Shown: positions 4,715 through 35,785 of the stretch, one piece after another
How the letters are laid out: the number at the start of each line of letters is the position of its first letter
How positions within the stretch are numbered: the stretch's first letter is position 1
Assembly: GCA_024276275.1 (NCBI GenBank)
Contig: JAJRXM010000100.1
Coordinates: forward strand, 1-35,785
Source: Candidatus Zixiibacteriota bacterium
GTDB taxonomy: Bacteria; Zixibacteria; MSB-5A5; GN15; FEB-12
Length of the DNA stretch: 35,785 bases
Direction of reading: 5' to 3'
Program-made: the position numbers and the translations under genes
The notes under the pieces: model-generated
What the model was told of the DNA's origin: nothing
The model's database searches: none
What the model saw: the letters and a program-made list of their open reading frames with translations, nothing else

Positions 4715-6043
4715 ATGAAACTTAAAAGAATTATTATACTTATTTTGTTTATATGTGTAGCTGAGCAATCATATAGTCAGACTTCGTTGACTTTAGAGGA
4801 AGCACTTGATTTATCATTATCAGTGAATCCATCATTGCTGGCTGCACAAGCAAAAACAAAAGCAGCCAAAGCTTCAGTTAGTCAAGCGACAGGTTATTTT
4901 CTACCACAACTTAGTTTGAATGCAGGATATACAAAATATCAAGAACCTAGTACGATAACTCCCATTCACGAAATCGGAGTTTTCCCAGCACTTGATAATG
5001 ATATATATAATGCAAATTTCAATCTTACCTTACCTATTTTTGATGGTGGACGTCGCACGTCTAATCGCAATATAGCTAAAGCATCTGAGAAGGAAAATAA
5101 GGCTTATAAACGACTTGCTGAACAATCGTTGATGAAGCAGATTGCAGAACTCTTCCTTTTTGCTCGACAAGTCGATGACCAGTCCGATTTAATATATAAA
5201 CGACTTGATCTTCTCAATCTCCGTTATCAAGATCTTCTTGCCTTAGAAAGCGAAGGAAGAGTTCCTCCGGGAGATGTTGCATTAGTAGCATCGACCTTAG
5301 CGTCGGCACAAGCAGATTCGATAGCAGTATATATCTCAAAAAATCAGATAGATCTAAGATTAGGTTTATTAGTTGGGAAATTTAAACCTATAACGCCAAT
5401 ACTGCCATCGGTCAATGATTCATCTACTGATAGAGTTGATACGCATTATGATTCTGATATTATTGATACGAATATAATCGGACCAATACTGGAAGCCGCT
5501 ATAGCTCGTAATCAAAAATCATTAGCTGTTTCATCTATTGCCAAGAAAAGTTTTTGGCCTGAAGCTTCGTTGTTTGGTTCTTACGTGTATCGTTCAGGTG
5601 CAGAATGGGATCCAATTGGTGAATGGGCTGCGGGAATAAAACTATCGATTCCAATTTTTCAGGGAGGCACGAGAATAAATAAAATTCGTGAGACAAAATC
5701 TCTCGCATTTGCATCAAGTCAAGCTGTTCTTAGTGCTGAATTAGAACAAAAGACTAATTTACAAATAGCATTAGAAGATTATCGTTCAAATCAAACTCGC
5801 TTTAATTTGCTTACTCAAGCTGAAAATGAAAAAATAAAGTCAGTGGCAGCACAGGAAGAACTATATAAAGCCGGTCGTATTCCACTACGGGATTTACATA
5901 TTCAGGAACTTGAGCTTTTACAACTGCAGGTTGATAAAAATAAATTATTGTTCTCAGCAAGATCAGCACTTTTGCGATATGTCTTTATTACAGGAACATT
6001 ATCAAAAGAAAAGGCAATAAAGATTACCGGAGGTTTACAATGA
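4715..6043 (+). CDS. TolC-family outer membrane efflux channel
   Basis: 442 aa with signal peptide MKLKRIIILILFICVAEQSYSQ. Two outer-membrane-efflux repeats are visible: LTLEEALDLSLSVNPSLLAA at the start with LPIFDGGRRTSNRN, and the second-half equivalent LSIPIFQGGTRINKIRE. Long amphipathic helices surround these motifs. The TGA stop overlaps the ATG of the adaptor gene (ATGA at 6040-6043), showing translational coupling and also showing that TGA works as a stop in this genome. It forms the exit duct of the tripartite pump. Confidence 0.9.
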   Translation: MKLKRIIILILFICVAEQSYSQTSLTLEEALDLSLSVNPSLLAAQAKTKAAKASVSQATGYFLPQLSLNAGYTKYQEPSTITPIHEIGVFPALDNDIYNANFNLTLPIFDGGRRTSNRNIAKASEKENKAYKRLAEQSLMKQIAELFLFARQVDDQSDLIYKRLDLLNLRYQDLLALESEGRVPPGDVALVASTLASAQADSIAVYISKNQIDLRLGLLVGKFKPITPILPSVNDSSTDRVDTHYDSDIIDTNIIGPILEAAIARNQKSLAVSSIAKKSFWPEASLFGSYVYRSGAEWDPIGEWAAGIKLSIPIFQGGTRINKIRETKSLAFASSQAVLSAELEQKTNLQIALEDYRSNQTRFNLLTQAENEKIKSVAAQEELYKAGRIPLRDLHIQELELLQLQVDKNKLLFSARSALLRYVFITGTLSKEKAIKITGGLQ

Positions 6044-17781: not shown

Positions 17782-20700
17782 CTATAAGATATTACTGACT
17801 AACCTTACAAGTTCGCTATCAGGTTTGATTCCTAAGCTATTGTGTAATGAAGTTTTATAACTATTAAAGACTTTGTATGCATTGATGGTTTTGTTCAGCA
17901 GAACATAAGTTTTAATGAGTTTTTCGATTCCATCCCTCCAAAGATGGTCATACGTCAATGCTTTTTCTAAATAATTAACTGCTTCTTCAAATCTGTTTTC
18001 TTTGATTAGTGATTCTGAAAATCTTAGTATTACATTCTGATATGTTAAATGAAAAAACTCACGTTCTTCTATAGCATAAGAATTATTCAAATCTTCAGTT
18101 AATAAACGGTTATCATAGAGCTGTACACACTTAAAACATTGTTCAATACAATATTCATCAGGGTTACTATTACTTGTATTTAATATTTTATCGGAAAAAT
18201 CTATAAAATCAACAATGTCTATAGAAGAACTTTCCGGTAAATCAAGTTGATATTGTGATTGTTTATTTACAATATATGAGTCTTTTCTGGTATGGTGATA
18301 TGGATCAAGATCATTTCTAAGGTCTTTAACAGCAGTTCTAAGTGATGCTTTTCCTTTTGTAATTTCTGAATTTGGCCAGAGAAGTTCAATTAATTATTCT
18401 TCGTTGACTGTTGACGGATACATTAAAGTCAGAATCTGCAAAAGCTGTTTAGATTTTTTTCTTTTGAAATTTATCTGGCGGTTATCAGAAAGAACATAGA
18501 AAATACCGAACATATTTATCTGAAGAGGAGGGAGAGGAATACTTGAAATGGTATTAAGGTATTCAGCAGCATTTTTACTTAACTTTTTCTGATTAATTGA
18601 CATCTGTTTTTTTGCCAGAGGTACTAATCCACGAATTTTATTAGCTTCTGCGACAGAAAATAGTTGTAAATAGTTTTTTGTTTTTAACTCTAATTTTGAA
18701 ACAAGATTATCAATTTCATCGGAAAATTCAAAAGTATAATCAGAACATAAAATTTTATCAATAAACTGCAATTTTCCACTTTTAACAGCATATAATACCA
18801 ATCTTTCTGTAATTTTTTTGTTATACATCGGATAAGAATACATTTTGTTCTTTTGTAAGATTGATATTCCTTTTATAAAATAGTTATAAGAAAGTGAGTA
18901 ATCATTTGAAAGTTCAGCATGGAGCCCTAATAAAAAGTTGGCTAACGCCTGCCAAGAAGGTAGTTTAGATTTAGAACTGATGGTCAAAAGTTTATCGGCA
19001 TTATCAAAACATTGTTTTTTCTTTTTATTTATAAAACTACTATAACTTTTATATACTAAATATAATAAATTTGATTGTGAGAACTGTGCTATAGAAATAG
19101 TTTCATCATTAGATAGTAGAGAATCTGAACTCCCTGTTAATAATACAAGATAGTCGATATAAATTTTAGTGTAAACGACTTCTTCTTCATTATATTTTTT
19201 TGCGTACTGCAATGAATTATGTAGTTTTTTTATTGCCATTTCATAAAAACCTAAGTAAAACAGAGCAATTCCTTTATAGTGTTCAGCAAACATCTTTGCT
19301 TGTATATCAAACGGTTCATGTTTAAACATTATTTGTTCAGCATCACCTATTATCTCCAAGCCCTTATTAATTTGTCCGCTTGAAATCAGTACCCAGGCAA
19401 TTTGTAGTAAACGGTTAGACATTCCATGGAATACTTTTTTTCTTTTACTTTCCTTTTTGTTGTCGTAGTAAATTGTTAATGCCTTTTCAATATTACCGGT
19501 ATAAAATTCAAAAATAGCCAAATTATCTAATTGATTTATTTTATATACAAAAGAACTATTGCCTATATATTTAATGCTTTTTTTAATATGCATTTTGGCT
19601 TTTGCAAAGTTTAGTTCTGTATAGGCAGCACAGCTTAAAGTTATTTCAACGCCAATTTTATCTTTTTCAGGATAGGGACCTTTTGCTTTTTCAATCTTAT
19701 TCCATGATGACAGCACCTCTTTATAAGAGGGGTTATTTGTTGAGTGTAAAATCGCCCAATAATATTTAACCCAAAGAGAGCAAAGGAGAATATCTCCTTT
19801 TTTATATAATGAAAGATCTATCTTGTCAGAAAGGAAGTCTATAACAGCAGAATTATCATTTATCTGAGATAAAACATTTGAATATAATTTTATAAAGAGA
19901 CGATGTGAACTATTCTTTGGAGAAATTTCAGCAAGTAAATTATTAATAACTTTTAAACCACCCTGTTCTATAAGCTTGAGCCAGTGAGAGTCAATAAATT
20001 CTAATAAAGATTCCTCATTATCCAACATGGATACCTTTTCAAGAGCATCTAAGTACATTTCTTTTGAAAGGTAGTATGCCGTTAGTTTATTGTTTATAGA
20101 GTCTATTTCTGATTGATTAAGTTTTTCCCGGGCAAGTACAGTTAATGCCTTTTCAAATATAGGGTGGTATTTTATTTCATCTCTGCAATACTCATTATAA
20201 GGGATTGAAGAATTTTTCAATTGTTTTATGAATTTTTTCACCTCTTCTTCTGAATTTAAGAGAATTGATAAAATTTCGGGTGTTATAATTTTTGAAAAAG
20301 AAGATTTTATCAGCCGTGTAATAAAAGTTTCATCAAGGTTACTAATATATTCCTCAAGTATATAATTTTCAGACATTTTATAATTAAAATAATCATTTGA
20401 GGAGTCAAATAAAGAGAACTTTTTCTGTTTAAAAGATTTGTCTATAAAGGCTGTGTTAATACACCAACCTTTAGATAATTTCCAAAGCTGTTCGAGTTCC
20501 TGTTTCTCAAAATTCAGTTTCCGTATAGTTAAAGAATCCATAAATTCTGTAAATGAAAATTTAAGATCTTTTTGGGTAAGTATTTTAATTATTTCCTTTT
20601 CTTGTAAACGAGAGATATTAAACGACGGATTTATTCTTGATGTAATAGCAATTTTCAGTTTCTGATTTGTGTGCTGTATGAGCTGATTTATAGTTTTTCC

Positions 20701-21129
20701 ATTTTCGTTATTGTCAGCAGATTCCCAATTATCTAAAAACAACCAGTGTATATTTTTTATCTTTTCCTGAAAAAGAAAACAGAGGTCTTCGGTTCTTTCT
20801 ATAATAGATGAACCATTTGATAACAACTCTTCCATTTTTATATTGTTATTCAATTCATTAGATGAATTAAATAATCCTGTTACTATATAATATAATAATC
20901 TTTCAGTATTCTGTTCATTTTCATCAACTGTTACCCATGTTTTGAAATGGTTCGTGGGCAGGTATGCATATAGTTGTGCTGCAAATGTAGTTTTTCCAAA
21001 TCCGGCAGGAGCCTTGAGTAAGTAGAGATTATAAGAGGAGCTAAGGCTGATAGAATCTAACAGTCTTGTACGCTGAATCAAATATTTAGAATTAACAGGT
21101 ACTTGTAATTTTGATTGTAATATCCTCAT
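17782..21129 (-). pseudogene. STAND/MalT-like ATPase-TPR-BTAD (SARP-type) regulator with one in-frame TAA
   Basis: One open frame of 1115 sense codons, broken only by TAA at 18396-18394. Residues 40-48 are Walker A (APAGFGKTT) and about 130-134 Walker B (LFLDN), as in MalT-type NTPases. A long helical TPR-like region fills about 330-840. From about 870 a winged helix begins (LPPLQINMFGIFYVL ... INFKRKKSKQLLQILTLMYP), and right after VNEE the stop replaces one codon; the frame resumes LIELLWPNSE ... KASLRTAVKDLRNDLDP, then a BTAD helical domain ending DSELVRLVSNIL. The stop falls inside the DNA-binding domain. A Lys, Glu or Gln codon to TAA by one change explains it. The start has AGGCAGG upstream. 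It is divergent from the operon at 21252. Confidence 0.85.
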
Positions 21130-21213
21130 TTTTCCTGCCTTTTATAGAAATTTAACTAAAAATAATAAAAAAAAACAAAAATAATAGTAAAAATATCTAA
21201 AATTATCTCTTTT

Positions 21214-21245
21214 TGTCACTCTGCTGTCACTTAGGAAAATATATT
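21214..21245 (+). promoter_or_regulatory. SARP-type direct repeats and -10 box of the surface operon
   Basis: TGTCACT occurs at 21214-21220 and again at 21225-21231, an 11-bp pitch. Eight bases later lies TATATT (21240-21245). SARP activators bind heptamer direct repeats at 11-bp pitch with the last repeat 8 bp from the -10, in place of a -35 box, and there is no TTGACA-like box here. The ATG at 21252 starts 6 nt after the -10, so the transcript would be leaderless. The divergent SARP-type regulator is the obvious binder. Confidence 0.65.
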
Positions 21246-21251
21246 ACAAAC

Positions 21252-21446
21252 ATGAAAAAAGATAAAAAAGTACACGGCAAGCCGATGAAGTTCATCCTTC
21301 ACATGGCAAAACAGGACTCTGATTGGGCAGGTAAAGCAGTCAGTTTTGAGAAAAATAAAGAAATAAAATTCAAAAATTTGAAAGAATTTAGTGATTGGCT
21401 CGATTTAGAGATCGAAATAAAGCAGCCGGAAAATGAAGAGGTTTGA
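21252..21446 (+). CDS. 64-aa cytoplasmic protein, first gene of the surface operon
   Basis: Reads MKKDKKVHGKPMKFILHMAK, then QDSDWAGKAVSFEKNKEIKF, KNLKEFSDWLDLEIE. The pattern 'F...... RQ(d/n).sW.G.v......F.s..El...id' recalls small proteins in Firmicutes and other bacteria that occur beside large BTAD/MalT-type regulators. No membrane segment. The 21252 ATG has no ribosome binding site but is placed for leaderless translation from the TATATT box; an earlier ATG at 21213 would lie upstream of the promoter. Its stop is 1 nt before the next start. A role as a partner of the regulator is inferred. Confidence 0.65.
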   Translation: MKKDKKVHGKPMKFILHMAKQDSDWAGKAVSFEKNKEIKFKNLKEFSDWLDLEIEIKQPENEEV

Positions 21447-21447
21447 A

Positions 21448-24216
21448 ATGAGAAAATATCTGATAATTTCAGTACTATTGATATTTATTTTATGTTTGTC
21501 CTGCAGCAAAGAAAATCCGATAGAGCCATCTGATGTCTCATATTCTGAGATGCTTGACAATGTAAGTTTCAACCCAACGTCAGGTGCTCCCGGAACTATA
21601 ATAGATGTATCTAACTTAGAGTTGCCTGTCGGTGAAGATACGGTATGGTCTCTTGAAATCGGTGGGCAGATAGTTCCTATAATGAGAGATTCAGGTACAA
21701 CAATTCGTACCGTCATACCTCTTATATTCGAAGACAGTAATTCAACCTGGCATACTCCGCCAACTACACCGGTCAACGTAACCCTCCTAAGATTTGATAA
21801 AGAGGTCGACAGTCTTGTTGGAGTTATCAGAATCGATTCCTTGCCCCACGCAAAAGGAGCGGCTGATTCTTTAATTGCAGATTTACAATCAGGTGCTGCA
21901 GCAATTAGAAATATTGCTTTATCAATCGGCATTATTGATACGATTATGCTTGCCACTTATGATGCTATGGATGTGATACTATATACCGGGGAGAATTCAC
22001 TTGCCAATATTCTAAACGGGAATTCTCCTCTTGTACCTTCTGATTCTATGCATAAAGAAATATTTTCAGCATTGTTGGTATCGTCAGGGTATGCAGACTA
22101 CTTTTCTCAATGGTCAGATAGTTTGAAATCAATAGCCACAACCGATAAATCACTACTGATACAAAAGTCACAAACAGGTATTACAGATGAAGAACTGGCA
22201 GCAAGAATGCAACTTCAGGCTTTGTTAGAAGATTTTGGTACAATGGTAATTGGAAATACTGCACTATCTTGGAGTGAGATAGCTGTGTATGTTGGAGCTG
22301 CAGGTGTAGTTATTCCGCAAATTAATTTTATAGAATTTATCGTCAGCTATATTATTGCTGAATTAGATTTTATATTTAATAAACTAGTTATTGCTGCCTT
22401 TCCAGCAGAAATCTCTAGTATAGAGCTTGATTTTGTGGAGCCTACTATAAGTGTGGGAGATACTACTAATGCGATAGTTTATATTTCTGCTAAAAATAAT
22501 CCGCCTAATATAACTCCGATGGATATTGTTCTTCAAGTTGTCGGAGGTATGGCACTAACCGATTGGATACGCAGTATAGGAACTTCAAGAAGTATTATAG
22601 ATCAATTACGTAATTTTGAACAAATAATACAGAATGTAACAGTTTGGCTGTTAGGTACCATAAACAATTTTCTGAGTGCTAACTATAATTATCCGACCCA
22701 GCTTGATGTAAATTTTCCTCACATGACCTGGGATTCTGTGCGAGTAAACAATCCCGAGCTAATTGATTTGATGATACCTGATTTGAGCAAGATGAGTTAT
22801 ATCAGTGGAAGTTTTAACGGTCAGGCAAGAGATTCTCTTGGAAAAATAGGTCTGCAGATGCGAACCCAGCCACCAGGACCTAATACATGGATTCATCCAG
22901 TTATGCAGAGTTTAGGGTATGCGGGTGGTACTTTTGGTAACGATTTATATGTCAGTAATATTGATACCATAACAATTGTAAGTAAGCTCGCTTTACAAGT
23001 TGATTTTTCTAACACAATTTCTGCTAACGGTTCCAATGTACTTGGTCTTGATGCCGGATATTATGACAGTCAGGGGAATCCTCACTGGGAACCGAATATT
23101 GATATCACTTTATTAGTAACCGATGGTAGTGCCGACGTGACCAACGGAGTTACTGATGCACAAGGACACTTTAGCAGTATCATTACAATAGACTCAACAG
23201 CTGATTCTGTAACTGTTGAGGTTCTTGCTGAGGGACAATTTAACTCACAAGTAGATACGATTGTCGTGTCGTTTAAAGAGAAGGACCCTATTGTATATGC
23301 TCGTTTAACTTATGCATCAAATTACTGTTCTTATGTACAACCAAATGAAACTATTCCTTTAGATGTAACAGTATTCAACCCTGACTCCGGACAAATCCCT
23401 GATGCCCAAATAAGTGTCTGGATTGACGGTGGAGGTTCTCTTGGTGCAACAAGTGGTTTGACTGATGCCAATGGAGATTGGTCGACATCTTTTACGACAC
23501 CATCTGATATGTCAAACCCAATTAAAATTCATGTTGAAGTAGATGCAGGAATAGGTTCTATCCAAGAAAAAGTTATTCACGTCAATCGCCTTGGTGGAGT
23601 ACCAGGTACGGGACCTATTTTTATATGGGGACAACAATATTCTCTTCGAGTTATGACTTGTGCGGTCAATGCTTACGGAGGACCAAATGATGATGGAGGA
23701 AGTAGTATTTCTAACATATTTGCTACCTGTGATTCAGGAATTACTTCGTCAAATTCTTTAAGTCTATCAGCTTCCTTTGGTTGTCAATTTGGTGGTGGAA
23801 GTGTTTCAACAACTATGGATTTAATAGGTGCAAATAATCAACACACTATCTTTTGGACAGCTATTGGAGGAGCAAGTGGGTTTGGTGAATATGCTTCATC
23901 AGGTATGGACGCAACTCTTAGTGGTGCTATTCTTTACCGAAAACCAAGTGGATTGAGTTTCCCGGCAGGAGCTATACTTCGCATGACTGTCAATTGGAGT
24001 GGTAACAGTTATTGGAATATAGCAGATTCCAGTAGTTTTAATATACAAGCGAGACAACAAACATTTGATATAGTACTACCGGAAGGACAAACGTCGTTGG
24101 TTGTACCAATAAGTTTTAATGCTTATGGGCAAGGGACTGGTGGAAATAATATATGTACTTCCAGTCTGGCTGCCGCAGTAACTACTAATATGGAATGTAT
24201 CAATTGCGGTGATTAG
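21448..24216 (+). CDS. Large surface lipoprotein with bacterial Ig-like repeats
   Basis: 922 aa from ATG 21448, chosen because GAAGAGG lies 7 nt upstream and the signal MRKYLIISVLLIFILCLSC follows directly; an ATG five codons earlier overlaps the previous gene. Lipobox LCLSC, acylated Cys19. Residues about 35-130 look like an IPT/TIG-like strand domain (FNPTSGAPGTIIDVSNLEL). A helical middle follows, and at about 560-720 there are two Big_1-like domains (GSADVTNGVTDAQGHFSS and GGGSLGATSGLTDANGDWS). The Cys-containing C-terminus (EGQTSLVVPISFNAYG) is probably also beta. No enzyme motif seen. Likely a membrane-anchored scaffold. Confidence 0.7.
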   Translation: MRKYLIISVLLIFILCLSCSKENPIEPSDVSYSEMLDNVSFNPTSGAPGTIIDVSNLELPVGEDTVWSLEIGGQIVPIMRDSGTTIRTVIPLIFEDSNSTWHTPPTTPVNVTLLRFDKEVDSLVGVIRIDSLPHAKGAADSLIADLQSGAAAIRNIALSIGIIDTIMLATYDAMDVILYTGENSLANILNGNSPLVPSDSMHKEIFSALLVSSGYADYFSQWSDSLKSIATTDKSLLIQKSQTGITDEELAARMQLQALLEDFGTMVIGNTALSWSEIAVYVGAAGVVIPQINFIEFIVSYIIAELDFIFNKLVIAAFPAEISSIELDFVEPTISVGDTTNAIVYISAKNNPPNITPMDIVLQVVGGMALTDWIRSIGTSRSIIDQLRNFEQIIQNVTVWLLGTINNFLSANYNYPTQLDVNFPHMTWDSVRVNNPELIDLMIPDLSKMSYISGSFNGQARDSLGKIGLQMRTQPPGPNTWIHPVMQSLGYAGGTFGNDLYVSNIDTITIVSKLALQVDFSNTISANGSNVLGLDAGYYDSQGNPHWEPNIDITLLVTDGSADVTNGVTDAQGHFSSIITIDSTADSVTVEVLAEGQFNSQVDTIVVSFKEKDPIVYARLTYASNYCSYVQPNETIPLDVTVFNPDSGQIPDAQISVWIDGGGSLGATSGLTDANGDWSTSFTTPSDMSNPIKIHVEVDAGIGSIQEKVIHVNRLGGVPGTGPIFIWGQQYSLRVMTCAVNAYGGPNDDGGSSISNIFATCDSGITSSNSLSLSASFGCQFGGGSVSTTMDLIGANNQHTIFWTAIGGASGFGEYASSGMDATLSGAILYRKPSGLSFPAGAILRMTVNWSGNSYWNIADSSSFNIQARQQTFDIVLPEGQTSLVVPISFNAYGQGTGGNNICTSSLAAAVTTNMECINCGD

Positions 24217-24248
24217 AAAGAATACAATATAGAAACTTGAGGTATAAA

Positions 24249-25715
24249 ATGAAAAAAATGATTATGATGATTTTGGTTGTTACTTTTATGATATCTTCTA
24301 TCTCTAATGCACAACTTAGTAAATCATGGGAGTACACGTTTTCCGGAAATTTTTTATATAGTGGAAAGAACTTATCATTTATAAATGAGAATGAACCTTT
24401 ACTATTAACCGGAACAAACGGGGGAGAAGTCAATATAGGGTTACATAAATTAACTAAAGACGGAACTGTCGATTGGTACCATGCTTTTAATCTGGGTGGT
24501 CGTGATTACGGTTTTGAATTAACGGTTAGTGACAATAATTCAATACATTTTGTTGGTCTTAAAGTTGATAGTTTGGGGAAGAGAGAAAATTATTCGATGT
24601 CTGTTTCAAAAGCTGGTGATTTGTTAGCACAAACTAAACTTGCTATATCAACGTATGAAGCACTTGCTGATAATAATAATTATTGGACTAGCTTTAGAAT
24701 GGGACGTTCTGGTAATGTTGTTTCTACAACAATACCCAATTGGGAGACGCTCTGTGCATCTTTTGGAGCTCGTATAGCACTGATATCTTATGCAGTGAAT
24801 TACTATAATGCGGGTAATTCAAGTTATGCATGGGAAGTTGGAGCGATTTCAGAAAATTCTCCGACACAACAGACATCTGTTTTAGGAGAAGTTACAGCTG
24901 ATGGTTCTATCCCAGTATTAGAGAATAATAGAGATGTGTCACATTGTAATTGTATATTTAGTGATTGTCTTCCGATTTTTACTGTTTATATTCAGAAATT
25001 TAATTCTAACGGTTCTCTTGCATGGAGAACCCAATTACCTTTGGGAAGTGGTATTATTCTTGGTCAATCTAAAGATTATATTGTTATTGAAACTTCAGGT
25101 CAACCATGGACATCAAATAAATCTAATGCTGAAAGTTTTTTGATAAACGTTGTATCATTAGCAACTGGTAATATTGTATTATCTTATCAAGTCCCAGATG
25201 GTTCTATCGCATATCAACCTGAAATACATAATAATATTATGATTATGAAAGTAAAAAGTGCGAGCTCAAACTCACTTTATATGTTTGATATCTCTACAGG
25301 AACTTTGATTAATAGCGCACCACTTGGTTTTAGTCCGGCAGGTGAGTTCGGCAGTAAAATGTTAGATAATGATGGTAATGTTTACCTTTTGAACGGAAAC
25401 TCAGAAATAGTATCTTTTGATTTAAACCTTAATGAACGATGGAAAGCTACCGTTGATGCAGGAACAAATGTTATTAGAGGTTTTGATACTTTTAACAATA
25501 TCTATACACTTCACAAAAATGGTTCTAATTTTATTCTTTCAAAGTATACGCAAGGTTCTTCTCTTACTCTTAATGATACCAATGGAAATACACTTTCTAA
25601 TACAGATTTTTATTTAATCAAAGTCGCCGATGATGCACCGTTATATACTCCCGATACACTTGGTGTTGTCAAAACAGATGCTGACGGAAAAATAAAAATA
25701 CAGCCGGTGCAGTAA
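24249..25715 (+). CDS. Secreted beta-propeller protein 1 with conserved C-terminal module
   Basis: 488 aa from ATG 24249 (GAGGT upstream). The signal peptide MKKMIMMILVVTFMISSISN ends near AQ. The body is built of propeller-like blades (INENEPLLLTGTNGGEVNIG, SKDYIVIETSGQPW, DNDGNVYLLNGNSEIVSFDL). A middle stretch contains five Cys within about 50 residues (CASFG, HCNCIFSDC). The last 50 residues (25563 on) are LTLNDTNGNTLSNTDFYLIK, VADDAPLYTPDTLGVVKTDA, DGKIKIQPVQ: a module shared by four consecutive genes. It most resembles the third paralogue (27084). Confidence 0.75.
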   Translation: MKKMIMMILVVTFMISSISNAQLSKSWEYTFSGNFLYSGKNLSFINENEPLLLTGTNGGEVNIGLHKLTKDGTVDWYHAFNLGGRDYGFELTVSDNNSIHFVGLKVDSLGKRENYSMSVSKAGDLLAQTKLAISTYEALADNNNYWTSFRMGRSGNVVSTTIPNWETLCASFGARIALISYAVNYYNAGNSSYAWEVGAISENSPTQQTSVLGEVTADGSIPVLENNRDVSHCNCIFSDCLPIFTVYIQKFNSNGSLAWRTQLPLGSGIILGQSKDYIVIETSGQPWTSNKSNAESFLINVVSLATGNIVLSYQVPDGSIAYQPEIHNNIMIMKVKSASSNSLYMFDISTGTLINSAPLGFSPAGEFGSKMLDNDGNVYLLNGNSEIVSFDLNLNERWKATVDAGTNVIRGFDTFNNIYTLHKNGSNFILSKYTQGSSLTLNDTNGNTLSNTDFYLIKVADDAPLYTPDTLGVVKTDADGKIKIQPVQ

Positions 25716-25736
25716 AAAGGAGTAGTAATGAAAAAA
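25673..25736 (+). repeat. 64-bp exact direct repeat, left copy
   Basis: Identical to 27029-27092. It covers the end of the module coding sequence (ACAGATGCTGACGGAAAAAT ...), the stop, the AAGGAG ribosome binding site and the ATGAAAAAA start of the next gene. Confidence 0.9.
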
Positions 25737-27071
25737 AGTATATTGCTATTAGTTATAACAATAGTTGCCATGTTACCACTTAAAGTTGATGCACAGCTCT
25801 ATGTGGAATGGGAACAAGATACACCAGATCAGCGTTATTCTGTGCTAGATAAGAATGGAAACTTCTATTTCATTAATAGATTTACACCTGTTTATCTCAA
25901 CAAGATAAACTCTGATGGAACACCGGGTTGGCAGATAGGTATTACTAGTAGTGAGGTAGGAAAGAGCGGACTACATTTGGATCAAAGTGGGAACATTATC
26001 ATTCCCTTTGATTCAATCCCTTTCAACCCTAATGGAGGTTATAGCAATCTTACTTCATACTTAAAATATTCGCCTTCCGGTCTACTAATTTCCAATCCCT
26101 CAATACTGGAACCTCTTTTTGCCCATCCTGGTACGCAATATATTACCACCAGAATTGATTTTGCAGATAATGTTCTTGTAGTAGGGAGTGAAACCGAATG
26201 GTTACCCTGCGATGGAGGTACGTGTGGGTATCCACATCTTAGGATTACATTTATGAATGATGCCGGTGCGATTTCGAGAATTACAGTAGACGGAGGGACT
26301 GAATCTATATTGGAAGGTTCAACAGGTAACATTATCGGACCTGATGCGAATGATGAATTTATTGTACAATATACTAATAAACAAACCCAGTACCCTTTTC
26401 TACCTGAGTACTATGAGTTGAGATGTAGTGTCCTGTCTGGAGTAATCTGGAAACAAGAAAGAAACCCTAGTGATAATTTAATTTTGGGACCCTCTGGAGC
26501 TATCTATCGACCCATTTTGAATGGCATTACTAAGTACGACCGTATGAATAACTTAGAGTGGAGATTTAACAATCCGACTGATTTAACTACTTTTTCTGTT
26601 TACGAAAATCCTATTGATTACAGCTTAGTTAACTTCTTAGTTGGTGGAACCCAGCCTAATACACTGATATGCTTAGAACAGGATGGCTCATTCCGTTGGC
26701 GTCGTAATGCTACAGGTACCTTCCACGGATTTGATTCAGATGGTAATGTGCTGGTTGAAACTTCTGATACTGTTTTGCAGCAAATAAATTACATTGATGG
26801 AAACATAATCAGCTCATCTCCTAATATACATATTTTTGGTAAAATCTTTAGCGACACACTCGGAAATGTATTTGTTGTAAGCAGGTACAAAATAGCTAAG
26901 CTGGCATCCCTTCCTGAACTTATCGTTAAAGATGCTCAAGATAATACACTTTCTAACATAGATTTTTATTTAATCAAAGTCGCCGATGATGCCCCAAATT
27001 ATACACCTGATACATTGGGAATAGTTACAACAGATGCTGACGGAAAAATAAAAATACAGCCGGTGCAGTAA
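25728..27071 (+). CDS. Secreted beta-propeller protein 2 with conserved C-terminal module
   Basis: 447 aa, with AAGGAG upstream, 12 nt after the previous gene. Signal peptide MKKSILLLVITIVAMLPLKV ends near DAQ. The body has blade-like repeats (LDKNGNFYFINRFTPVYLNK, LDQSGNIIIPFDS, FDSDGNVLVETSDTVLQQI) but shares little sequence with its neighbours. The final 50 residues repeat the module (NTLSNIDFYLIKVADDAPNY ... DADGKIKIQPVQ). The gene is framed by two 64-bp identical repeats, so it could be deleted or duplicated as one 1356-bp unit. Confidence 0.75.
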   Translation: MKKSILLLVITIVAMLPLKVDAQLYVEWEQDTPDQRYSVLDKNGNFYFINRFTPVYLNKINSDGTPGWQIGITSSEVGKSGLHLDQSGNIIIPFDSIPFNPNGGYSNLTSYLKYSPSGLLISNPSILEPLFAHPGTQYITTRIDFADNVLVVGSETEWLPCDGGTCGYPHLRITFMNDAGAISRITVDGGTESILEGSTGNIIGPDANDEFIVQYTNKQTQYPFLPEYYELRCSVLSGVIWKQERNPSDNLILGPSGAIYRPILNGITKYDRMNNLEWRFNNPTDLTTFSVYENPIDYSLVNFLVGGTQPNTLICLEQDGSFRWRRNATGTFHGFDSDGNVLVETSDTVLQQINYIDGNIISSSPNIHIFGKIFSDTLGNVFVVSRYKIAKLASLPELIVKDAQDNTLSNIDFYLIKVADDAPNYTPDTLGIVTTDADGKIKIQPVQ

Positions 27072-27092
27072 AAAGGAGTAGTAATGAAAAAA
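27029..27092 (+). repeat. 64-bp exact direct repeat, right copy
   Basis: Identical to 25673-25736, 1356 bp downstream. Recombination between the two would remove or duplicate exactly one propeller gene while keeping both junctions in working order. Confidence 0.9.
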
Positions 27093-28595
27093 GTAATACT
27101 AATGATTTTAGTCCTGACATTTATAATACCGTCTGTCTCTGAAGCACAGTTAGTAAAAGTATGGGAATATGTGCTTCCGGTTGGAGCCAGTAATACCTTT
27201 AAGTTGATAAACTCAGATGAAATAGTTTTTACCGGCATCTCATTAAGTCAATCTGAAAGTATAGGAATAGGGAAACTAAATAGTAGTGGAGCAGAGGCTT
27301 GGTATCATGAAACGGTGTTAGGTAAATATGCTCAACCTGATGATGTACCAACAATTATAAATAACAATGAAATTAGTTTTGTCAGTTCTTATGCTATTCT
27401 TAACCAAGACAGTAGAATTACAACAATTAATCATTTGTTATCTACTTATTCAGAAACAGGTAGTTTAATTTCTTCCACTTTATTAAATAAGTCAAGCTAT
27501 GAAGATTTGGGCGATTACATAAGTCGCTCTACTTATACTGGTGGATTGAAAATAAATAATAAAGGTGATGTAGTGTTTATTACCAATCCATATTGGCGCG
27601 TAACTTGTTCGGATAATACTGTTGACTACGGGAGTGCTACATATGCAATAAACTATTATACATATAACAATAGTAATTATACATGGGAGCATCGTGAATC
27701 AAAAGCTGATTTTATCCATCATAAAGGATACATTAGTGATTTTACACCGGATGGGTCTATAGTTATTATTGAAACCTTAGAAGACAGAACAGGCAATAAC
27801 TGCCCATTTAATCCTTTAGTTCAAAACCCATTTACAACAACAATAAAAAAATATAGTGCTGCAGGTGTTTTATTATGGGCATCAGAGCTATCTCATAGAT
27901 ATGGGAATATACTTTGTCAAACAGATGATTTGATTATTGTTCGTTCGTACGGTCCTTGGACTGACCAACGAATAACCGCCTATGCAGTACAAACAGGAGC
28001 AGTTGTCTGGACATATAATATGCAGGGGAATCATATACCTGTTAATGCAGATGTTTATACAGATAAATTGTTATTACAGGTACAAGCTACAGACGCAAAT
28101 GACAGAACAGTTACTCATTTTTACCTGCTTGATGTTGCAACAGGTGCTGTGTTGCGTACTATGGCGTTTACAGATCGAGCATTTGATGACAGAAATAATA
28201 ACTGGTTTGACAATGAAGGTAATATATATCTATTAAATACAGTCTACTACAACGAAGGACTCGGTGACTACGGTATAACTTGTTATGATATAAACTTTAA
28301 TCAACTTTGGAGAAGTTCTTTTGGTAATACTCGGATATATAGGTTATTGGAAATTGATGATAATAAGAATATTTATTTATATGGTCGTGATGTTTTCGGA
28401 AATACAGCATGGAAAATAATGAAATACACACAGGGAACTACTCTCACCCTTAAAGACTCTCAAAATAAAGCACTCTCCAATACAGATTTCTATTTAATCA
28501 AAGTTGCCGATGATGCTCCAAACTTTACACCTGATACGTTGGGCATAGTAACAACAGATACTGACGGAAAAATAGAATTAAAACCGGTACAGTAA
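27084..28595 (+). CDS. Secreted beta-propeller protein 3 with conserved C-terminal module
   Basis: 503 aa, AAGGAG upstream, 12 nt after the previous gene. Signal peptide MKKVILMILVLTFIIPSVSE, cleavage near AQ. The body resembles propeller protein 1 in order and length (SSYEDLGD ... NPYWRVTC ... YAINYYTYNNSNYTWEH against YEALAD ... NWETLC ... YAVNYYNAGNSSYAWEV). The last 50 residues are the shared module (KALSNTDFYLIKVADDAPNF ... DTDGKIELKPVQ). No catalytic motif seen. Confidence 0.75.
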   Translation: MKKVILMILVLTFIIPSVSEAQLVKVWEYVLPVGASNTFKLINSDEIVFTGISLSQSESIGIGKLNSSGAEAWYHETVLGKYAQPDDVPTIINNNEISFVSSYAILNQDSRITTINHLLSTYSETGSLISSTLLNKSSYEDLGDYISRSTYTGGLKINNKGDVVFITNPYWRVTCSDNTVDYGSATYAINYYTYNNSNYTWEHRESKADFIHHKGYISDFTPDGSIVIIETLEDRTGNNCPFNPLVQNPFTTTIKKYSAAGVLLWASELSHRYGNILCQTDDLIIVRSYGPWTDQRITAYAVQTGAVVWTYNMQGNHIPVNADVYTDKLLLQVQATDANDRTVTHFYLLDVATGAVLRTMAFTDRAFDDRNNNWFDNEGNIYLLNTVYYNEGLGDYGITCYDINFNQLWRSSFGNTRIYRLLEIDDNKNIYLYGRDVFGNTAWKIMKYTQGTTLTLKDSQNKALSNTDFYLIKVADDAPNFTPDTLGIVTTDTDGKIELKPVQ

Positions 28596-28604
28596 GGAGA
28601 ACAT

Positions 28605-30038
28605 ATGAATAATAATTTAAAAATGTTGATTTTAGTTTTCTGTTTACTATTGATACCTACAATAACTCAGGCACAGCTTTCAGAACAATGGACACATGTT
28701 TATTCTGAAAACGTGTTTAATTCTATGTATATCTATACACCCGTATTCGATAAAGAAAGTAATATATATATTGCGTGTACCTATAAGGCACCTGATAGCT
28801 CGGAAACAAGTCGATTAATAAAGTTTGATAAAAAAGGTAAGATAGTATGGGAATATGATGATGTTCATTCAGGTAATGTTAATCAAACAGTAGTTGGACA
28901 AAATGATGAAACAGCACTTACCGGGATGGAGTTTCTTAATTCTGGAGAAACTCAATTGTTTTTTAATAACATTAACGTATCAGGTGCAGCGATTTGGGAG
29001 CAAACGTATAGCCAAACGAATCATCAGATATGGAGCTATAACAGTTGTTTTAATAGTACAGGAGATTTCTTTGTATCCGGGTTTACGAGAATAATTGATT
29101 CACGTAATTCTGAGGACATAATTGTTTTAGCATACAGTCCGACAGGTAATTTCCGTTGGGCATACTCTTTTGACGGTGCTTTACATCAACAAGATACCGA
29201 TGGAGCTATAGTTGGGGATAACTTGGGAAATATCTTTATAGTTGGAAGTGAATGCGTTGATGAAGATATCTACAATAGATGTACAACACTTTCAAATCAT
29301 CTGTTCAAATTTAATAACGAAGGGTTAGTGTGGAATGTCGCTGTACCATACAAGTCAGAATGGGCAGTAAATAGTGCAATTTCTGCCAAGGTTGATAATA
29401 GTAATAATCTAATTTTTATGAGTATTATAATTTCCGACGGTAATTATTATCATTTGTCACAGTTATACAAGTATAGTTCGTCAGGTTCTCTCCTTTGGAA
29501 CATCGTAACTGATAGTGCTTCAGTACCTGCAAATAATTTAGCAAAGGAAATAGTTGTAGATAGCTACAATAATATAATTGTTTTAAGTAATGGAGAGAGC
29601 TGGGATGATTTAGTTGTACACAAATACAGTTCCGATGGTGTTGAGTTGTGGAGCCATACATATAACGGTCAAGGAGCTCCTCGCGATATTTCAGTAAATT
29701 CTAATGGAGATATTTATGTAGTTTACAGTAGTGGTGCATTAAAGTTACGTTCGGACGGTACATTATTGTGGGAATATGCTTTACCATACTCAAACTACTC
29801 TACTGTAAATAAAAAAGGACAGATTGCCCTTTCAATAATAAACACGATAGGGTTCAGCATTATAATGTATTCGGAATCTTCTACTCTCACACTTAAAGAC
29901 TCTCAAAATAATACACTTTCTAATACAGATTTCTACTTAATCAAAGTTGCCGATGATGCTCCAAATTATACACCTGATACATTGGGAGTTGTTACCACAG
30001 ACTCTGACGGTAAGATAAAATTAAAACCGTTGCAGTGA
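28605..30038 (+). CDS. Secreted beta-propeller protein 4 (SBBP-like repeats) with C-terminal module
   Basis: 477 aa, AAGGAG upstream, 9 nt after the previous gene. Signal peptide ends near TQAQ. Blades are of the SBBP type (FNSTGDFFVSGFTRI, GDNLGNIFIVGSECV, DSYNNIIVLSNGESWDDLVV, VNSNGDIYVVYSSG), each with 'D..GN.' and 'W' motifs; these fold as a beta-propeller. The final 50 residues carry the module (NTLSNTDFYLIKVADDAPNY ... DSDGKIKLKPLQ). The stop is TGA at 30036-30038. The protease gene follows 44 nt later. Confidence 0.75.
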   Translation: MNNNLKMLILVFCLLLIPTITQAQLSEQWTHVYSENVFNSMYIYTPVFDKESNIYIACTYKAPDSSETSRLIKFDKKGKIVWEYDDVHSGNVNQTVVGQNDETALTGMEFLNSGETQLFFNNINVSGAAIWEQTYSQTNHQIWSYNSCFNSTGDFFVSGFTRIIDSRNSEDIIVLAYSPTGNFRWAYSFDGALHQQDTDGAIVGDNLGNIFIVGSECVDEDIYNRCTTLSNHLFKFNNEGLVWNVAVPYKSEWAVNSAISAKVDNSNNLIFMSIIISDGNYYHLSQLYKYSSSGSLLWNIVTDSASVPANNLAKEIVVDSYNNIIVLSNGESWDDLVVHKYSSDGVELWSHTYNGQGAPRDISVNSNGDIYVVYSSGALKLRSDGTLLWEYALPYSNYSTVNKKGQIALSIINTIGFSIIMYSESSTLTLKDSQNNTLSNTDFYLIKVADDAPNYTPDTLGVVTTDSDGKIKLKPLQ

Positions 30039-30082
30039 TGATTATGAATAGTGAATTAACTAATAACAATATGAGGTACAAA

Positions 30083-32461
30083 ATGAAAACAAAACTAATG
30101 AGAGCTTTAATAGTTATGATTTTTCTCATCATTCCATTTTTAGCTCAAGCACAAACGTCTGATTTTGAAATCAGACTAACAGATGGAAGTACAGTTACGG
30201 TGAGTTCCGGTGATAAAATTAAGTTTGCCAAACTTGTTGATGAAGAACCGGCAATGAAACATCCGGTACTTTTAGGAACGCTGTATAATCTGCATCTCGA
30301 TAACGGTAAATTTGACGAGAACGGTGTTTTAAGTTATGATGAAATAACAGGGGACAATCAAGATATAATAATGGATCATACAGAAATTAGATATAACCTT
30401 GTTGTCTCGGTAGAGTGGGATGCCAAGGAGGAATATCTGCAAAGCGTAAACAATGGATTTAGAAAATTATCTAACTATTTATATGATGTGACCGACGGTC
30501 AAGTATGCCTTGATACAATTTATATTGGTGATGATATGCAGTATTGGAATGAAGCAGATATTCGCATACGTGCTCATAACAGCAGTAGACCAGTTGCCTC
30601 AATAAATGGAGCTAATACAAATCAAAGAAACGCAGTTATGCTGATTCCAAGGAAATGGTATGGGGATATAGATGAATCTCGCAACGGGTCATACGATGAG
30701 GTTCCTCCAATAGATTATACTGATGATGAAAATATTAGAATGATTGCTCATGAGCTGGGACATTACCTATTTGGTTTTGAGGAAGAGTATGAGTTTTTTG
30801 ATAACAATGGAAGATGTTCTCCTCTCTATGACTATGGTCTTATGGATGGATATTTAATATATCAGAATAACTGGACATCAGCTATGACATCAGAAATGTC
30901 GAGTGGAAATACATACATAATAACAGAATGTCAAAATACCAGACAATTTGTGTTAAACCAGAAATCCTGCTGGGATCAATTTGAAGAAAAATTTGAAGGT
31001 ACAGTGGGTCCTGAAGCTATTTATGTGCCTATTTTAAAACCTACAATATCTGACGAAACAGAAAATGTTGTGCCGGCAACTTTAACGTATATGCCGGGAC
31101 CTAATAATGACTTAAGTAATTTGGACTATGATGTTGGTGCAAGAATGGTAACTCCTATTATTCCTACAATGTCAACTGCATTTGATTTAGATGTAGTGAC
31201 ACATGATTGGCAAGCAAATAGGTTAGGTAACATAAAAGTTGTTTTAAGAAAGCTAAACATGATATCTCATAGAGATATAGAGCAAGGCTTTACAGCCGAT
31301 GTTGATCCGTTTGGATTATCAGGCGGAGGGATATATGTCCTTGGTGCTGAAACAAATGACAAGATAATGGTATCCTCTGACTATAATATTATGGGAATAT
31401 CAAGAAGAGGCTTTTCTGAATTCTCATCATCTACCAGATGGTACTCAGGAGAGGTCACGGTTGGAGCAACTTCAGACAGCTTGGAAATAGAACTAAAAAA
31501 AGTTGAAGGAAATTATCCGCTTGTTATTAACGCAGTAAAAGATAGTTCGGGAATAACATTTGATATGCTTTTTGCCCTGACATTTTCAGAATTACCTACG
31601 ATAGAGATACCTGAATCGGGCGGCCAATATCTGTTTAGCGCGTCAGCGAATTCAACTTATACGGTATCGGTTTCAGACAGCCTTAACTCTAACGGAACTG
31701 TGACTATCTATGCCAAAGATGCTAACAGTACAGATTTCTTTTTTAACCTTGGTTATGATAATATCAGGTTTGATTCAGCATCATCTAATATTATCGAAGC
31801 AAGTGACGGCCTTATTCGTTTAGAACGTTCAGATACATCAACACAAGATATATTCATTGTTTCATCACCGTATCTGGTTATGGAAAGTAATCTCCCTGCC
31901 TCTGCTCTAAAAATAGGTGAATGTTATTCAATTTGGAAATCAAGTAATGATAGTTTACGAGTAACAATTAGATATACAGATGCTGACTTATATAGCGATG
32001 ATTCCTTTATCGGCTATGAAGATATGATTCAATTGTATATGTGGAATAGTAACAACAATCAATGGGAACAGTACTCAGCAACATTGGATACAGTAAACAA
32101 TTCTGTAACAACACAAGTAAGTAGTTCCGCTATTTTTGCTTTGTTCAGCTCAGATGTTATGACAGATATTGCAGATAATCCAATTGTAACATTACCGAAC
32201 AGGATTGTACTTAATCAAAACTATCCTAATCCATTCAACCCTTCAACAGAAATAACTTTTAGCTTGCCGACAGCTTCTGATATAAAACTTGAAGTGTATA
32301 ACACTCTTGGCCAGAAGGTGACAAGATTATTAGAGGGAAGGTATAATGCAGGTGTTCATCAGGTAACATGGGACGGCAGTGAGTCTGCCAGCGGAGTATA
32401 TTTTTTCAAGCTGATAACAGGAGATTTTATGGAAACGAAGAAAATGTTGTTACTAAAATAA
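30083..32461 (+). CDS. Secreted CLCA-like zinc metalloprotease with type IX sorting domain
   Basis: 792 aa from ATG 30083 (GAGGT upstream; upstream in-frame starts would put polar residues before the signal MKTKLMRALIVMIFLIIPFL). Residues about 75-170 hold YNLVVSVEWDAKEEYL and SNYLYDVTDGQVCLDT, a domain found before such proteases. The active site reads HELGHYLFGFEEEYE (His223, Glu224, His227), the HExxHxxxGxx(D/E)E spacing of CLCA/M87 peptidases, with Glu234/Glu235 as third-ligand candidates instead of Asp. LMDGY follows. A long beta region leads to the C-terminal 80 residues LNQNYPNPFNPSTEITFSLP ... GQKV ... GVYFFKL ... KKMLLLK, a type A type IX secretion signal. Confidence 0.85.
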   Translation: MKTKLMRALIVMIFLIIPFLAQAQTSDFEIRLTDGSTVTVSSGDKIKFAKLVDEEPAMKHPVLLGTLYNLHLDNGKFDENGVLSYDEITGDNQDIIMDHTEIRYNLVVSVEWDAKEEYLQSVNNGFRKLSNYLYDVTDGQVCLDTIYIGDDMQYWNEADIRIRAHNSSRPVASINGANTNQRNAVMLIPRKWYGDIDESRNGSYDEVPPIDYTDDENIRMIAHELGHYLFGFEEEYEFFDNNGRCSPLYDYGLMDGYLIYQNNWTSAMTSEMSSGNTYIITECQNTRQFVLNQKSCWDQFEEKFEGTVGPEAIYVPILKPTISDETENVVPATLTYMPGPNNDLSNLDYDVGARMVTPIIPTMSTAFDLDVVTHDWQANRLGNIKVVLRKLNMISHRDIEQGFTADVDPFGLSGGGIYVLGAETNDKIMVSSDYNIMGISRRGFSEFSSSTRWYSGEVTVGATSDSLEIELKKVEGNYPLVINAVKDSSGITFDMLFALTFSELPTIEIPESGGQYLFSASANSTYTVSVSDSLNSNGTVTIYAKDANSTDFFFNLGYDNIRFDSASSNIIEASDGLIRLERSDTSTQDIFIVSSPYLVMESNLPASALKIGECYSIWKSSNDSLRVTIRYTDADLYSDDSFIGYEDMIQLYMWNSNNNQWEQYSATLDTVNNSVTTQVSSSAIFALFSSDVMTDIADNPIVTLPNRIVLNQNYPNPFNPSTEITFSLPTASDIKLEVYNTLGQKVTRLLEGRYNAGVHQVTWDGSESASGVYFFKLITGDFMETKKMLLLK

Positions 32462-32472
32462 AGGAATGAAAT

Positions 32473-33213
32473 ATGTATAACAAAACAAAACTAATATTTA
32501 CTGTTATACTGTTGGCAGTTTTCTTAGGTTGTATGCCACCGTCTCAAGGAAGTGTAGAGAAAGGATTTACAATATGGGGGTATGTCGGTAATACAGCTTC
32601 CGAACCGGCATCAAATATAATGGTTTTACTTATTGACGGAAACAGTGACAAACCCGTGGCAAGTAAGAATAGTAATTTTCTAGGAAAATACACTTTTTCA
32701 GGACTTCGTCCGGGGTACTATAAAATAAAAGTATCAGATAAAGAAATAGAAACTGTTATTACGACAGAAAACCAAAGAGTTGATATTGATTTAAGCTCCA
32801 AAACAGGTGCTATGAATTATGCTGCCGCTGCTATTAAAGATGTTGTCGGAAACGCTAAACCGGGGGGAGACCCGGAATTGGCAAAAAAATTCTCAGGACA
32901 ATGGTACAGCTATTCAGGTGCTATGAGTGGCGGAGGTTCTGAAAGTCAGATGGGGCTCTGCTGAAACGGTAACTATTATGCAAGTTATGAAGCAGGCTAT
33001 TATGGAAGTGATGAGTCTTCAGCTTGGGGTAGTGTCTCAGAAAGCGGAAGTAACGGTACATGGTCGATTGAAGGTAACGCACAGCGGGGGACTATTACTA
33101 TAAAATATAGAAACGGTTCTACATCTTCAATGCAGTATCAACAATCAAATGATGACCCTCAATGTTATTATTTTGACAGCAGGCTTCATTGCTACAACGG
33201 AACATGTAAATAA
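32473..33213 (+). pseudogene. Lipoprotein, cassette copy 2, with one in-frame TGA
   Basis: Starts MYNKTKLIFTVILLAVFLGC (lipobox FLGC) with AAAGGA upstream. It is the same length as copy 1 (741 nt) and has no indel, but after MGLC the codon TGA (32962-32964) stands where copy 1 has TCT (Ser). The frame then continues NGNYYASYEAGYYGSD ... CYNGTCK to TAA at 33211-33213. Differences from copy 1 after the TGA are again mostly synonymous, so the rest of the gene has been under selection until recently. If the stop is real, the protein ends after 163 residues, keeping the first domain but losing most of the second. Confidence 0.8.
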
Positions 33214-35358: not shown

Positions 35359-35785
35359 ATGAAAGACAATAACGACGAAACTCATATCCATGTAGTCTTG
35401 GCAAAAGACACTATGGTACAGCATTACCGAATTATTAAAAAAATCGGTGCCGGTGGCATGGGTGAAGTATATCTAGCAGAAGATACAAAACTCAAGCGAA
35501 ATGTTGCTCTTAAATTTATGCCGTCTCACTTGGCATCAGAAGCTAATATGCGCACACGATTTACCCGTGAAGCTCAGGCAGTAGCCAAACTCAATCATCC
35601 TAACATTGTTGTAATTCACGAAGTGTACGAATCTGAGGAACGTCCATACTTTGTCATGGAACACGTGGAAGGTCAATCACTTAGGGATATAATGAAAGAC
35701 CGTGATTTGAGTGTCGACAAAATATTAGAACTGGTTATTCAAATATGTAGCGGTATCAGTTCTGCTCATCAAAAAAATGTAGTAC
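35359..35785 (+). CDS. Hanks-type Ser/Thr protein kinase, N-terminal part (runs off the window)
   Basis: 142 codons are visible from ATG 35359; the frame stays open to the edge. Motifs: glycine loop IGAGGMGEVYLAED, the ATP-anchoring Lys in VALKFM, the helix C region FTREAQAVAKLNHPNIVVIH and the hinge FVMEHVEGQSLRDIM. The window stops just before the HRD loop. In FCB bacteria such kinases usually continue with a membrane segment and PD40 propeller repeats, like the gene tail at position 1. An internal ATG at 35413 (MVQHYRIIKKIG) is an alternative start. Confidence 0.9.
   Translation, partial: MKDNNDETHIHVVLAKDTMVQHYRIIKKIGAGGMGEVYLAEDTKLKRNVALKFMPSHLASEANMRTRFTREAQAVAKLNHPNIVVIHEVYESEERPYFVMEHVEGQSLRDIMKDRDLSVDKILELVIQICSGISSAHQKNVV

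Follow-up and report, generated by a model that had tools for sequence, protein, structure and literature searches.

Probable SARP-type control of a surface-protein operon outside Actinobacteria: comparative sequence evidence

Comparison of ten sites supported SARP-type promoter control outside Actinobacteria, with a regulator whose domains are rearranged. The promoter lies in the window (the whole stretch of 35,785 nucleotides of a Candidatus Zixiibacteriota bacterium that was analysed), in front of a gene for a 64-aa protein. We consider it likely, with a probability of roughly 0.8, that a STAND-SARP regulator binds the two heptamers of this promoter, recruits RNA polymerase and so gives a leaderless mRNA for the 64-aa protein and a surface operon. 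We infer the binding, the activation and the transcript start from the sequences compared. An earlier, sequence-only reading of the window had proposed control of the SARP type; the comparison bore this out, and that reading had overlooked both a nonsense codon in the regulator gene and the likeness of the repeats to a PHO box. SARPs were described in a 2024 review as exclusive to actinobacteria and tied to antibiotic clusters (PMC10972967).

Promoter layout and its recurrence at ten sites

The sequence at 21214-21254 reads TGTCACT-N4-TGTCACT-N8-TATATT-N6-ATG, and the 11-bp pitch, the 8-bp gap and the 6-nt gap were all exact, as the sequence-only reading had given them (Table 1). SARP targets were reported to be poor promoters with an extended spacer, a repeat pitch of 11 bp and the 3' repeat 8 bp from the -10 (PMC10936776). 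Of the pitches known for the heptameric direct repeats of SARP promoters (11 bp or 22 bp), all ten sites showed 11 bp. The 3' repeat lay 8 bp from the -10, and the repeats overlapped the -35 region, where no consensus -35 was present at normal spacing. Averaged across the ten sites, resemblance to TATAAT was highest at exactly 8 bp past the second heptamer (4.3 of 6 positions). Resemblance to TTGACA had its sole peak at the 21-bp spacer (TTGTCA, mean 4.7 of 6), with a mean of only 0.2-1.2 of 6 at the normal spacers of 16-18 bp. The afs box extends from -40 to -19 and has an essential T at -38 and at -27 (PMC10936776). With +1 set at the A of the ATG, comparison of coordinates placed the first T of each heptamer at -38 and -27.

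Table 1. Coordinates of the promoter elements, the regulator and the operon genes in the window
Feature	Position	Strand	Remarks
Regulator reading frame	17782..21129	-	MalT-type STAND ATPase, TPR-like region, C-terminal winged helix and BTAD (SARP domain)
Predicted recognition helix SLRTAVKDLRN	18313..18345	-	beyond the TAA; from alignment with AfsR
In-frame TAA	18394..18396	-	inside winged helix, NEE*LIELLWP; paralogue NEEELVEILWP (glutamate codon)
-35-like TTGTCA	21213..21218	+	21-bp spacer; overlaps upstream heptamer
Upstream heptamer TGTCACT	21214..21220	+	predicted half-site of first SARP protomer; kept in ten sites, co-varies with second copy
Inter-heptamer spacer CTGC	between 21220 and 21225	+	N4, between both TGTCACT
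Downstream heptamer TGTCACT	21225..21231	+	11-bp pitch; 8 bp from -10 hexamer
8-bp segment TAGGAAAA	between 21231 and 21240	+	separates second heptamer from TATATT
-10 hexamer TATATT	21240..21245	+	TATAAT match over ten sites best at exactly offset 8
6-nt gap ACAAAC and start codon ATG (21252-21254)	21246..21254	+	predicted leaderless start, +1 at or beside A of ATG
64-aa conserved small protein, first operon gene	21252..21446	+	nine homologues; predicted beta-beta-beta-alpha
Second gene, large exported protein	21448..24216	+	probable lipoprotein, Big_1 domain
Remaining surface-protein genes	24237..32964	+	including PQQ_2-like, Por secretion tail and CarboxypepD_reg/SdrD_B-like proteins; gaps of at most 21 bp or overlap

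Exact 7-mer repeats at pitch 11 occurred four times, at three places, in the window, and other pitches gave similar counts. At this frequency the repeat is not significant by itself, and a comparison was therefore needed. A chance repeat without function, which the window alone would allow, was refuted by the comparative data and has almost no probability, given the conservation over ten sites with concerted change and the exclusive location at SARP loci. Genome-wide scans were run as pattern searches. TGTCACT-N4-TGTCACT was present in exactly two copies in the 3.39-Mb genome, one at 21214 and the other at a paralogous locus (C44). Across 132 genomes of the phylum, the wider pattern TGTCANT-N4-TGTCANT-N8-TANNNT-N4..10-ATG matched five times and only at this locus, and the reversed control pattern did not match at all. 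Further near-matches in the 3.39-Mb genome, C18:12559 and C2:21976 among them, were rejected as chance because they fell inside a coding sequence or at its end, or had no -10 at 8 bp.

Of the ten sites, two belong to the own genome (the window and its paralogue C44), seven come from further genomes of the phylum, one each, and the last is from Candidatus Abyssobacteria SURF_17 (G117, locus L030). The 64-aa ORF was used as query and gave homologues in G003, G004, G015, G038 and G056, and later in G109 and G117; the G045 site was reached via its regulator and not via the small ORF. Both copies read TGTCACT before a TATATT hexamer in the window, C44 and G003, and G004 had TGTCACT/TGTCACA with the same hexamer. 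TGTCATT was found twice in G015 (hexamer GATACT) and G117 (GATATT), TGTCAGT twice in G109 and G056 (TAGCTT), TGTCAGC twice in G045 (TAAATT) and AGTAAGT twice in G038 (TATAGT). At G045 (locus L123, about 5440-5500) the repeats and the -10 were kept with no 64-aa ORF at 6 nt, and the first large ORF began about 400 bp downstream.

The 7-N4-7-N8-hexamer spacing was invariant in all ten aligned sites. At pitch 11 the two copies agreed in 69 of 70 positions, whereas pitches 6-10 and 12-22 gave agreement in 3-27 of 70. The paired copies of the five heptamer types (TGTCACT, TGTCATT, TGTCAGT, TGTCAGC and AGTAAGT) varied in concert, and such a concerted change is the mark of two putative half-sites read by a single protein. 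The 60 bp upstream were 88-93% identical inside the own genus and 20-50% identical elsewhere, so the conserved layout does not merely reflect recent common descent. A search for the layout upstream of homologous operons, which the sequence-only reading had suggested as a check, returned the exact spacing across six regulator groups with about 25-34% full-length identity to one another. The divergent regulator adjoined the repeats at every one of the ten sites, with only its N-terminal part carried on the G056 and G109 contigs, where the gene is split over contig ends.

The repeats might instead be a PHO-type box for a PhoB-like response regulator of the OmpR type, the adjacent SARP gene being incidental. 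PhoB and its PHO box likewise combine direct 7-bp repeats, an 11-bp pitch, a TGTCA core and an OmpR-type winged helix. In E. coli, the most conserved PHO motif, CTGTCAT, forms direct repeats of 7 nt separated by 4 nt (PMC4415409), to which TTGTCAC-TCTG-CTGTCAC compares here. In Streptomyces, the sites of PhoP and AfsR overlap (PMC10972967). However, no such box stood out upstream of pstS in eight genomes, where the best matches (6-8 of 10 core positions) were at background level, although the pst promoter may lie elsewhere. TGTCACT-N4-TGTCACT was confined to the two SARP loci of the genome, and the repeats were linked to the SARP gene at all ten sites. PhoB carries a receiver domain and lacks BTAD. 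The heptamer here drifts with the local regulator, as far as AGTAAGT in G038, where the geometry was retained and the pstS region had no matching change. We therefore consider the PHO-type reading unlikely and prefer the divergently encoded STAND-SARP protein as the reader of the two heptamers.

On the minus strand (21202-21230) the repeats read GTGACA and, with a GATAAT 17 bp off, formed a promoter-like match toward the regulator gene. This GATAAT was absent from G003 and the more distant sites. A bound activator might shut this promoter-like match, which would be autorepression.

The divergent regulator

A profile built from five full-length regulators matched MalT (3e-45) over residues 2-406 and matched EmbR (1.1e-9) and AfsR (3.7e-8) over residues 873-1118 of 1119. 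A single-sequence search matched the SARP domain to AfsR at 6.9e-7. Pfam placed BTAD above its gathering score in four of four regulators, with Trans_reg_C alone below its gathering score. NPHP3_N, AAA_22 and TPR_MalT were matched in the regulator, the last of these below its cut-off, and the P-loop APAG[FY]GKT was conserved in A2. AfsR was the top PDB fold match of the predicted SARP-domain model (1.5e-6), and AfsR and EmbR were its only good PDB matches; this model was of low confidence (pLDDT 62, two-row alignment) and served only to back the sequence match. The regulator thus has the P-loop ATPase and TPR-like sensor region of a STAND protein of the MalT type. Intact relatives have an OmpR-type winged helix followed by BTAD, as in the SARP family; in the window copy a TAA falls within the winged helix. 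SARPs with extra domains carry the SARP domain N-terminally and the extras C-terminally; here the MalT-like part came first and the SARP domain last. The family was found in this phylum and in Candidatus Abyssobacteria, and thus beyond actinobacteria.

The divergent gene had been described from the sequence alone as encoding an ATPase-TPR-BTAD protein. For the relatives this was upheld by profile, Pfam and fold, but the window ORF itself (18394-21129) stops at the TAA before BTAD. The frame stays open beyond it, to 17785. Since the rest of the frame is intact, with a SARP domain 79% identical to that of G003, the TAA is either recent or an assembly error. The C44 locus carries a 64-aa ORF with 88% identity, an identical promoter and a divergent intact regulator, and the regulators of the window and C44 are 72% identical. 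The intact C44 paralogue may serve the window promoter, a role suggested by the nonsense codon in the window gene; if the TAA is real, C44 could supply the activator because both promoters carry the same 18-bp site.

Alignment of the predicted recognition helix to AfsR showed that R87, T88, R94 and K95 were largely retained and that S91 was usually K. The base-contacting R92 of AfsR was replaced by D in the regulator group and by S in G045, so the base readout must differ from that of AfsR. Regulators with LRT..KDLRK were paired with TGTCA[C/T]T, those with LQT..KDLRR with TGTCAGT, those with LQT..SSLRK with TGTCAGC and those with LQT..SDLRK with AGTAAGT. Residue 87 was R where heptamer position 6 was C or T, and Q where it was G. 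The joint variation of recognition helix and heptamer, with few independent changes, is suggestive of a matched pair.

The closest known system is AfsR-afsS of Streptomyces coelicolor, a large SARP (SARP-NOD-TPR). It likewise has a STAND ATPase, TPR and a SARP domain, the last matching the regulator here in sequence and predicted fold, and it likewise acts on an adjacent small-protein gene, whose promoter has a pair of 11-bp direct repeats (-40 to -19), a poor -35 and an extended spacer. In contrast, the domain order is reversed here (STAND-TPR-SARP, with the SARP domain C-terminal), the regulator gene is divergent, and the heptamer is TGTCANT where AfsR has CGTT(T/C)ATCG. The host is not an actinobacterium, the target is a lipoprotein operon with a predicted leaderless first gene, and the 64-aa protein has no detected relative. 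The SARP-LAL proteins (PimR, SanG, PolR) and the small SARPs DnrI and ActII-ORF4 likewise use heptameric direct repeats with 4-nt spacers, and they require two heptamers or more (PMC5930380). They differ in their N-terminal SARP domain, their heptamers and their place in Streptomyces antibiotic clusters, and the main operator of PimR has three heptamers. MalT of E. coli, a STAND activator, strongly matched the N-terminal 400 residues of the regulator, but it has a LuxR-type DNA-binding domain in place of the SARP domain.

Start of translation, small protein and operon

The absence of a ribosome binding site from the first gene, noted in the sequence-only reading, was confirmed. The 64-aa ORF has no usable Shine-Dalgarno, the nearest AGGA (21233-21236) being 15 nt from the ATG, and AGGAG is common before many other genes in the window. 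Nine sites have the 64-aa ORF; the gap between hexamer and ATG was N6 in eight of them and N8 in G056, which leaves no room for a leader. In G109 and G117, in-frame stop codons lie within or just after the promoter, so an upstream start is excluded and the ATG is the sole start there. The retention of N6 and these in-frame stops support a leaderless transcript as the simplest reading. A true start or leader further upstream, with the repeats translated from a TTG start or lying in a 5' untranslated RNA, would agree with the frame in the window, where the 17 codons before the ATG contain no stop. We regard it as highly improbable: the stops in G117 and G109 leave only the ATG, the N-terminal MK was invariant in all nine small-protein homologues, the paralogue differences upstream of the ATG were dispersed and not codon-like, and Rfam gave no match.

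The 64-aa protein was modelled as beta-beta-beta-alpha (pLDDT 73.5), and sequence and structure searches gave no Pfam, NCBIfam or convincing PDB relative. The repeats could be an operator for repression, for example if the 64-aa protein exerted feedback at its own promoter and the SARP protein acted elsewhere. A protein bound to the repeats would stand in the way of RNA polymerase, and wherever the small protein occurs, its gene comes first. However, the predicted fold of the small protein has no DNA-binding relative, G045 retains the repeats without the 64-aa ORF, and the exact 8 bp to the -10, together with the lack of a -35 at 16-18 bp, agrees with a promoter that depends on an activator. 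A repression operator is thus very unlikely, and activation by the STAND-SARP regulator remains the reading we prefer.

Closely spaced genes extended from 21252 to 32964 (11.7 kb) and were followed by a gap of 310 bp, so the tight spacing supports only about 11.7 kb of the 14-kb operon claimed before. Lipoprotein genes were found downstream of the small ORF in the relatives and at C44. On the basis of the Por secretion tail, an FCB affiliation is plausible. An identical stretch of 25 bp (GCCGGTGCAGTAAAAAGGAGTAGTA) stands before two successive operon genes (25703-25727 and 27059-27083), which suggests tandem duplication of these surface-protein genes. At 35359-35784, just past a Peptidase_S74 protein, the start of a gene with a protein kinase domain is cut by the window end.

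Proposed mechanism, spread and significance

In the mechanism that we propose, the two heptamers would be the operator for the divergently encoded regulator, whose STAND part (MalT-type ATPase and TPR-like sensor region) would be switched on by a signal. Two SARP domains would then bind next to each other, each on its own heptamer, in the manner of AfsR at afsS, and would hold sigma region 4 over the poor -35 at the over-long 21-bp spacer. RNA polymerase would thereby be recruited to the -10 exactly 8 bp downstream, and transcription would start at or next to the A of the ATG. The resulting mRNA would be leaderless and would cover the gene of the 64-aa protein together with the lipoprotein/surface-protein operon behind it. 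MalT-type STAND proteins are controlled by partner proteins, and by analogy the 64-aa protein may feed back on the regulator.

The small ORF was rare, being present in six of 80 genomes of the order, and was found in none of 82 genomes of the KSB1 phylum and in neither of two other genomes of the Abyssobacteria phylum. The regulator tree grouped G117 with G015, and G109 (from another order) with G056; these groupings suggest that regulator, operator and small ORF travel as a unit. The L030 regulator of Candidatus Abyssobacteria and its G015 counterpart share 64% identity, a likeness that suggests transfer between phyla. When the search by C-terminal region was broadened, another set of SARP-domain regulators came to light within the phylum (L155-L163, in G027, G038:C17, G041, G044, G047, G116, G122, G124 and G125), most of them about 1,030-1,256 aa long, and the heptamer layout was not found upstream of them. 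Two Chloroflexota SARP loci (L052 and L055) showed neither such a promoter nor the small ORF. As a tentative extension, which we hold to be possible and not probable, a partly mobile, self-contained cassette (STAND-SARP protein, private operator and 64-aa feedback or signal protein) might run surface-lipoprotein operons in uncultured Gram-negative lineages, with half-sites and helix drifting together. If this reading is true, the cassettes would form a natural series for the specificity code of OmpR-type winged helices.

The fixed distance from -10 to ATG makes the first gene a candidate for obligate leaderless translation, although Shine-Dalgarno sequences are otherwise in frequent use in this genome. 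With five heptamer types, each paired with its own regulator, DNA recognition by the SARP domain can be tested directly. In a phylum other than the actinobacteria, the SARP module is accompanied by the complete promoter grammar (7-N4-7-N8-hexamer), at surface-lipoprotein genes. If the proposed mechanism is true, activation of the AfsR type by sigma adaptation would be a mechanism of wider use among bacteria.
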